Shown here: in pieces, positions 44,892 through 45,671 of the stretch
Position numbering within the stretch: position 1 is the first letter of the stretch
How the letters are laid out: every line of letters begins with the position of its first letter
Source of the DNA: Myxococcales bacterium
GTDB taxonomy: Bacteria; Myxococcota_A; Polyangia; Polyangiales; Polyangiaceae
Direction: 5' to 3'
Length of the DNA: 45,671 nucleotides
Assembly (NCBI GenBank): GCA_947473045.1
Contig: CANJCO010000038.1
Location: 1 to 45,671 of the forward strand
Notes under the pieces: generated by a model
Seen by the model: only the letters and a program-made list of their open reading frames with translations
What the model was told of the DNA's origin: nothing
Databases searched by the model: none
Translations under genes and position numbers: made by a program

Positions 44892-45443
44892 TCAGTCGCG
44901 CAGCGGGCGCCCCTGCGCGTCGGTCACTTTGCCCGTGAGCATCATGATGCCGTCGATGAGCGGCCAGACTGCCCCGAGGCCGCAGGTCAGCCAGACCGCG
45001 GCGATCTGGGCGATCGCGAGGCCGGTGTGGCCCGTGTAGAAGCGGCCCACGCCGAAGCTCCCAAGGAAAATCTGGAGCAATCCGGCCGTCATCTTCTGCT
45101 TGTCGGAATAGGGCAGACCGGTGGTCGGCTCGATGCCGAAGGGGGCCGCCTGATTCATCATGCCCGCGCCGGGAGCCATGCCCATGGGAGGGGCGAAGCC
45201 GCCGGGAGGAGCGCCGAAGCCCCCGGGAGGCGGGCCATAACCGCCGGGAGGCGCACCGCCGCCGGGAGGGGGACCATAACCGCCGGGGGGCACGCCGCCA
45301 CCGGGAGGGGGACCATAACCGCCGGGGGGCGCGCCGCCGCCGGGAGGGGGACCATAACCGCCGGGAGGCACGCCGCCACCGGGAGGGGGACCGTAGCCGC
45401 CGGGGGGGGCGCCACCGCCGGGAGGGGGAGGATAACCTTGCAT
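44892..45443 (-). CDS. TM2-domain membrane protein with Gly/Pro/Tyr-rich repeats
   Basis: A 183-residue protein. ATG at 45443 has AGGAG about eight bases upstream; the open frame reaches 45521, but that extension runs into the hairpin region. Residues 1-86 are Gly/Pro/Tyr-rich, with five 13-residue repeats (PGGGAPPGGYGPP alternating with PGGGVPPGGYGPP, residues 8-72) and a degenerate sixth. Residues 105-183 are a TM2 domain: SDKQKMTAGLLQIFLGSFGV, GRFYTGHTGLAIAQ, VWPLIDGIMML, i.e. two membrane helices around a short loop. TM2 proteins are of unknown molecular function. The disordered N-terminus probably faces the cytoplasm and may bind partners. Confidence 0.85.
   Translation of the reverse strand: MQGYPPPPGGGAPPGGYGPPPGGGVPPGGYGPPPGGGAPPGGYGPPPGGGVPPGGYGPPPGGGAPPGGYGPPPGGFGAPPGGFAPPMGMAPGAGMMNQAAPFGIEPTTGLPYSDKQKMTAGLLQIFLGSFGVGRFYTGHTGLAIAQIAAVWLTCGLGAVWPLIDGIMMLTGKVTDAQGRPLRD
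45228..45422 (-). repeat. Five 39-base tandem repeats in the TM2 gene
   Basis: Each 39-base unit encodes PGGG-(A or V)-PPGGYGPP. Alanine and valine units alternate A-V-A-V-A, so the real duplicated unit is probably 78 bases. The units are nearly identical at the DNA level, indicating recent expansion or ongoing homogenisation. Confidence 0.85.
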
Positions 45444-45484
45444 GAATAGAGCTCCTTGAGTGAACGAAGCCGAACGTATTACGG

Positions 45485-45671
45485 TCCCCGAAAAAGCGCT
45501 AGCAGGGTGCTCGAACAACATCCTGCTAGCAGGGTGTTGAAAAACACCCTGATAGTAATTGGCGAAGCCAATTGCGTGGGGTGGGGACCCCGAAAAACCG
45601 CGTTTTTCGGGGCGGGGAGGTGCATACCTCCCCGAGATGAAAGGCTAGCAGGCCGTTCTTCAACGGCCTGC
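45485..45671. repeat. Cluster of six strong hairpins with GCTAGC-bounded units, running off the window
   Basis: Six inverted repeats lie in 174 bases. H1 45498-45530: 12 pairs, one G-T. H2 45531-45550: 8 perfect pairs, GAAA loop. H3 45557-45573: AATTGGC/GCCAATT, GAA loop. H4 45588-45612: CCCCGAAAAA/TTTTTCGGGG, 10-11 pairs. H5 45614-45633: GGGGAGGT/ACCTCCCC, GCAT loop. H6 45648-45671: GCAGGCCGTT/AACGGCCTGC, CTTC loop, ending exactly at the window edge. GCTAGCAGG recurs at 45498, 45525 and 45644, each opening a hairpin unit (H1, H2, H6). CCCCGAAAAA also occurs at 45486. The region is less GC-rich than its surroundings and I found no gene in it. It could be a REP/BIME-like repeat, the edge of a mobile element, or a structured RNA. 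Confidence 0.75.

Follow-up and report, generated by a model that had tools for sequence, protein, structure and literature searches.

What are the hairpins that crowd the last ~190 bases of this contig, and how did they come to be there? The window, by which we mean the whole 45,671-nt stretch of DNA analyzed, is the entire contig C38 of a 5.15-Mb genome that is 99.98% complete and assembled in 138 contigs. The end of the window is therefore the end of the contig, which stops at the hairpins because the repeat to which they belong breaks the assembly. Hairpins at positions 45498 to 45671 are denser than chance would allow: the 193-nt end stretch had a folding energy of -108.4 kcal/mol, compared with -66 ± 4.6 kcal/mol in dinucleotide shuffles (z = -9.24, with 0 of 200 shuffles as good), and the fold was better than that of shuffles on both strands (z = -9.2 and -8.7). 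All of the stem-loops described in the original prediction, which was made from the letters of the window, were found to be present. The nearest gene, read leftward and spanning 44892 to about 45443, encodes a TM2-domain protein. Within it, tandem 39-bp repeats (45180 to 45440) encode the Pro/Gly-rich N-terminal region (PPGGYGPPPGGG...).

The window-end hairpins comprise a complete MITE (miniature inverted-repeat transposable element) together with what remains of an older, degraded copy (Table 1). At 141 bp the MITE is too short for a transposase, and no transposase open reading frame lies inside it; its two ends carry the terminal inverted repeats CAGGGTGTTGAAAAAC and CAGGCCGTTGAAGAAC. Reading the junctions of the copies directly, the length of the unit was found to be constant at exactly 141 bp, from CAGGGTGTTGAAAAACACCCTG to CAGGCCGTTCTTCAACGGCCTG, with flanks that are unrelated between copies. 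Of the right target duplication of the window copy, a single base (45671) is left before the contig ends. The older remnant comprises a core fragment (45483 to 45499) and a left-end hairpin (45503 to 45525) that belongs to a diverged subfamily, with CTAG on either side. Exact copies of GCTAGCAGG occur four times in the window, three on the forward and one on the reverse strand, every occurrence being at the hairpin end. The difference between AGGGTGTT and AGGCCGTT had been taken for compensatory change among repeated units; these are actually the terminal inverted repeats, left and right, belonging to a single element, plus the left end of the older remnant. Compensatory change is thus absent between the units in the window but present in the interior core when this is compared across genera. 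It had also been suggested that the array could be an insertion sequence (IS) end; the body of the IS would then lie past the contig end. This was worth considering, as the window stops at the element and the ends resemble those of an IS on contig C83. However, copies in the interior of contigs are complete, with both ends 141 bp apart and unique flanks on each side, which refutes such an arrangement for the family and makes it highly improbable for the window copy.

Table 1. Coordinates of the features identified at the end of the window
Feature	Position	Strand	Basis or description
Older degraded copy, remnant	45483..45525	+	Direct repeat D8; diverged copies with CAGGGTGCTCGAA ends
Stem-loop	45503-45525		Imperfect
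Left 4-bp target duplication (CTAG)	45526..45529	.	Compared with copies having both flanks
Complete 141-bp MITE copy	45530..45670	+	Boundaries set by dozens of differently flanked copies; identical copies genome-wide
Left terminal hairpin/inverted repeat CAGGGTGTTGAAAAACACCCTG	45530..45551	+	Stem-loop
88-nt structured core, conserved across the order	45556..45643	+	Alignments A1 and A2, model R1; 34/183 genomes
Core stem 1, AATTGGC-GAA-GCCAATT	45557..45573	+	Stem-loop; sequence, fold; varied stems in alignment
Core stem 2, CCCCGAAAAAC/GTTTTTCGGGG	45588..45612	+	Stem-loop, 11 bp, perfect; both-side changes in 6/8 modelled pairs
Core stem 3, CGGGGAGGT/ACCTCCCCG	45613..45634	+	Stem-loop, 9 bp, perfect; both-side changes in 8/9 pairs
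Stem-loop	45648-45671		10 bp, perfect
Right terminal hairpin/inverted repeat CAGGCCGTTCTTCAACGGCCTG	45649..45670	+	

When a 31-base piece of the MITE interior was used as a query against the 5.15-Mb genome (≤3 mismatches), 81 + 71 (~152) matches were obtained, a count that includes some physical copies twice where two contigs end in one copy; the reversed control gave 0. The copy number is roughly 100 to 150. At least 40 near-identical full copies are present, many sharing 99 to 100% identity and many being identical over the 141 bp. The about 150 matches genome-wide agree with the mobile repeat proposed originally and dispose of the opposing case, in which there would be no other copy. Many copies are located at contig ends, as an assembly artifact might be, yet many others lie inside contigs with proper flanks and related elements exist in other genomes, including a single-contig assembly, so that an artifact, likewise raised at the outset, is scarcely conceivable. 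The contig ends are a consequence of the repeat and not its cause, and the MITE explains the fragmentation of the assembly, many of whose 138 contigs end in a copy. An exact 40-mer of the MITE had no match in GTDB r220, and no description of the element family was found in the literature searched. Another genus has a copy with 99% identity to the window element, which occupies one end of a 5-kb contig (G006, C52, positions 1 to 115) and represents either a recent transfer or a misbinned contig.

The copies are flanked by 4-bp YTAR-type duplications that covary from copy to copy (CTAG/CTAG, TTAG/TTAG, CTAA/CTAA, and CTGG/CTGG). Both flanks are known for 25 copies; in 13 of these the 4-nt flanks match exactly, with four different sequences represented, while the remaining 12, with nonidentical flanks, are mostly diverged copies, copies next to other repeats, or copies with one G-to-T change beside the left hairpin. 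Where the right flank is known for two or three bases only, left flanks starting with T are paired with right flanks starting with T. The base to the left of the element is T and not G (CTAT or TTAT) in L080, L071, L067, L066, L065, and L008. This T extends the left hairpin by pairing with an internal ATAG, and the change looks like quasi-palindrome correction after insertion. The copy on contig C49 (L077, 6957 to 7101) interrupts a coding frame, and joining its flanks restores the reading frame. For an older copy (L072), an empty site was found, as the congener G001 has a syntenic neighborhood without the element; the gene adjoining this copy ends in TCTAG, carrying the duplicated target, versus TCTGA in G001. 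From the duplications, the empty site, and the restored frame, we infer that the element spread by transposition.

Which enzyme could have moved it? The original prediction had put forward a REP/BIME-like element mobilized by a Y1 (RAYT) transposase, and there is a likeness to REP, BIME, and REPIN elements in the short palindromes, the extragenic position beside gene ends, the high copy number, and the tetranucleotide at the hairpin foot. However, a search for the Y1/REP transposase domain PF01797 found none in this 99.98%-complete genome, while the same search was positive in 5 of 14 control genomes. REP/IS200-type movement makes no target duplications, whereas the MITE has matching 4-bp duplications, and its unit is of fixed length with terminal inverted repeats. 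A Y1-mobilized palindrome is accordingly very hard to credit, and the element belongs to the class of DDE (IS5-type) MITEs.

No IS630-type DDE_3 transposase was found in the genome, and a single transposase with DUF772 and DDE_Tnp_1 domains is present, encoded by the IS on contig C83. This IS is 1,339 bp in length, with ends CAGGACGTTGAGAAAC and CAGGGTGTTGAAATTC and CTAA on both sides; its 366-aa transposase is intact and matches NF033581 (transpos_IS5_4) above the cutoff (E value of 2e-81), IS1182 being below the cutoff. Relatives in two other genomes of the order (G019 and G043) encode transposases sharing 67 to 68% identity and have CAGGCTGTTGAARAA or CAGGCTGCTGAARAA ends, each beside YTAR. 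The C83 element and its relatives thus resemble the MITE in their CAGGnnGTTGAA (or CTGAA) ends and YTAR flanks, but the MITE has no coding capacity, and the interiors of the MITE and the IS are unrelated. The MITE has a YTAR target and a 4-bp duplication, and it shares its ends with an IS that carries an IS5-family transposase gene. The best mechanism appears to be movement in trans by a transposase of the IS5 type, with the C83 IS the likely partner. The true source may nevertheless be gone, because the C83 IS is represented by one copy and its ends match those of the MITE over only about 16 bp. An unrelated IS, on contig C54 directly beside a MITE copy (L108/L109), was considered as a partner and rejected, since its ends differ (CACTACTTTGACA).

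The duplication coincides with the in-frame stop codon of the adjoining gene in 23 of 66 testable flanks, compared with 10 of 114 ordinary YTAR sites (Fisher P = 3.5e-5), as judged by a crude coding test based on an open frame and GC content by codon position. These stop flanks were found on both sides of the element (10 left and 13 right), with the two gene orientations about equal. Many copies would lie at stops because the YTAR target (CTAG, TTAG, CTAA) contains TAG or TAA and because insertions within genes are presumably lost; target choice together with selection would be enough to explain the association. Genome G022 carries another miniature element that has this core but is otherwise different, and 11 of its 12 copies directly follow the stop of the gene upstream, in the sense orientation and at a constant offset.

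The core itself matches sequences in other genera in which the ends of the element differ. A covariance model detected it in 34 of the 183 genomes from the order, representing 22 of 83 genera, and in several it is multicopy. From 49 distinct core sequences, 97% of pair cells were standard pairs and both-side changes were present in 16 of 21 pairs, giving a covariation score of 0.350 against 0.143 ± 0.008 when shuffled and at most 0.085 when slid, in an alignment fitted to the model, which favors structure. The core fold is credible because of the effect size and because stems 2 and 3 are varied in sequence; a structured element was worth considering, and the structured RNA of the original prediction would apply to the core only. 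A pseudoknot between a loop and the sequence upstream (GCGTGG with CCRCGC) was considered and rejected, as it is fully formed in one subgroup only. GCGAAGC or GCGGAGC often forms the closure of core stem 1 (window positions 45557 to 45573, alignment A2). The oligonucleotide d(GCGAAGC) folds into a DNA mini-hairpin of unusual stability, and such a closure would fit a DNA-level role of the core.

The core could function as a structured RNA, for example a terminator at 3' ends, a stability element, or a small RNA, that hitchhikes in several unrelated transposons; the strong cross-genus covariation, the sense placement behind stops in G022, and the persistence of the core while ends differ between genomes all speak for this. 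Against it, copies in the genome of the window have both orientations relative to genes at about equal frequency, G-U wobbles (10) are hardly more numerous than A-C mismatches (6), favoring neither RNA strand, and correction of DNA palindromes also yields covariation. A search of Rfam gave no match above the gathering score (best subthreshold E value of 0.059). We regard a structured RNA as a rather unlikely explanation. Equally tentative is a wider proposal, in which the core would be a functional fold, of RNA or single-stranded DNA, that several unrelated miniature transposons have acquired and place precisely behind stops. There it would serve as a mobile module of 3' ends, rendering insertion harmless or even useful.

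Elements with the same end hairpin were identified in GTDB metagenome-assembled genomes (Lysobacteraceae, Deltaproteobacteria, Chromatiales, and Acidiferrobacterales). Their left end reads YTAR, CAGGSYGTTGAARAACRSCCTG, YTAR, and their right end is inverted, ending in CCTG followed by a YTAR-like sequence as in the present MITE, with a hairpin array bearing GGA loops in place of the core. Independent movement of the 22-bp end hairpin was considered and rejected, as the flanks in 73 GTDB hits were mostly inverted (TTAG...CTAA) and rarely direct, the hairpin being the left end of larger elements. Among the GTDB elements L129 to L201 (from Lysobacteraceae, Deltaproteobacteria, and Gammaproteobacteria), the outer left tetranucleotide was TTAG in 45 cases and its reverse complement CTAA in 3, which reflects either a single insertion orientation at an asymmetric target or a stem extended afterwards. 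A GGA loop (ATGGAT, AAGGAT, or CAGGAAG) was present in 73 of the 141 hairpins of these elements, where shuffles gave about 3 and the opposite strand gave 2. GGA in a hairpin loop is the motif bound by CsrA/RsmA, and the hairpin-array elements may be mobile CsrA-binding RNAs.

The best account, and one in which as a whole we place high confidence, is that of a MITE moved in trans by a DDE transposase and recently amplified, with its placement at stop codons arising from target and selection. The enzyme would insert this 141-bp DNA transposon, which lacks genes and has inverted-repeat ends that form hairpins, into 4-bp YTAR-type targets and duplicate them, the probable source of the transposase being the single IS5-type element of the genome (C83) with its matching ends. 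Recent amplification would have raised it to its present abundance, while insertions inside genes were presumably removed by selection. As the duplication would preserve the stop codon, surviving copies would often sit exactly at gene stops. The core would help the element or the host, probably through a fold that renders insertion at gene ends harmless.

Among known systems, MITEPsy1 of Pseudomonas syringae pv. phaseolicola comes nearest in kind, as far as its published description extends. It is a gene-less element of about 100 nt with inverted repeats, which uses CTAG or YTAA as its insertion target, duplicates 4 nt, was shown to move, and has ends resembling those of the IS5-family element ISPsy2 (PMC3189936). 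In that account MITEPsy1 shares with the present MITE the lack of genes, the inverted repeats, the 4-nt duplication, and the IS5-family-like ends, but differs in sequence and in number, with 6 copies against about 150 matches, and is described without a conserved structured core, stop-codon placement, or hairpin ends (PMC3189936). The element described here is of the same kind as MITEPsy1 but with a much higher copy number and a covarying core common to several genera. Tiny transposons that target a stop-codon tetranucleotide, with a core found across 22 genera and exchangeable ends, offer a clean system for asking whether bacterial MITEs carry selected cargo, and this family also allows one to ask how a genome tolerates more than 100 insertions.
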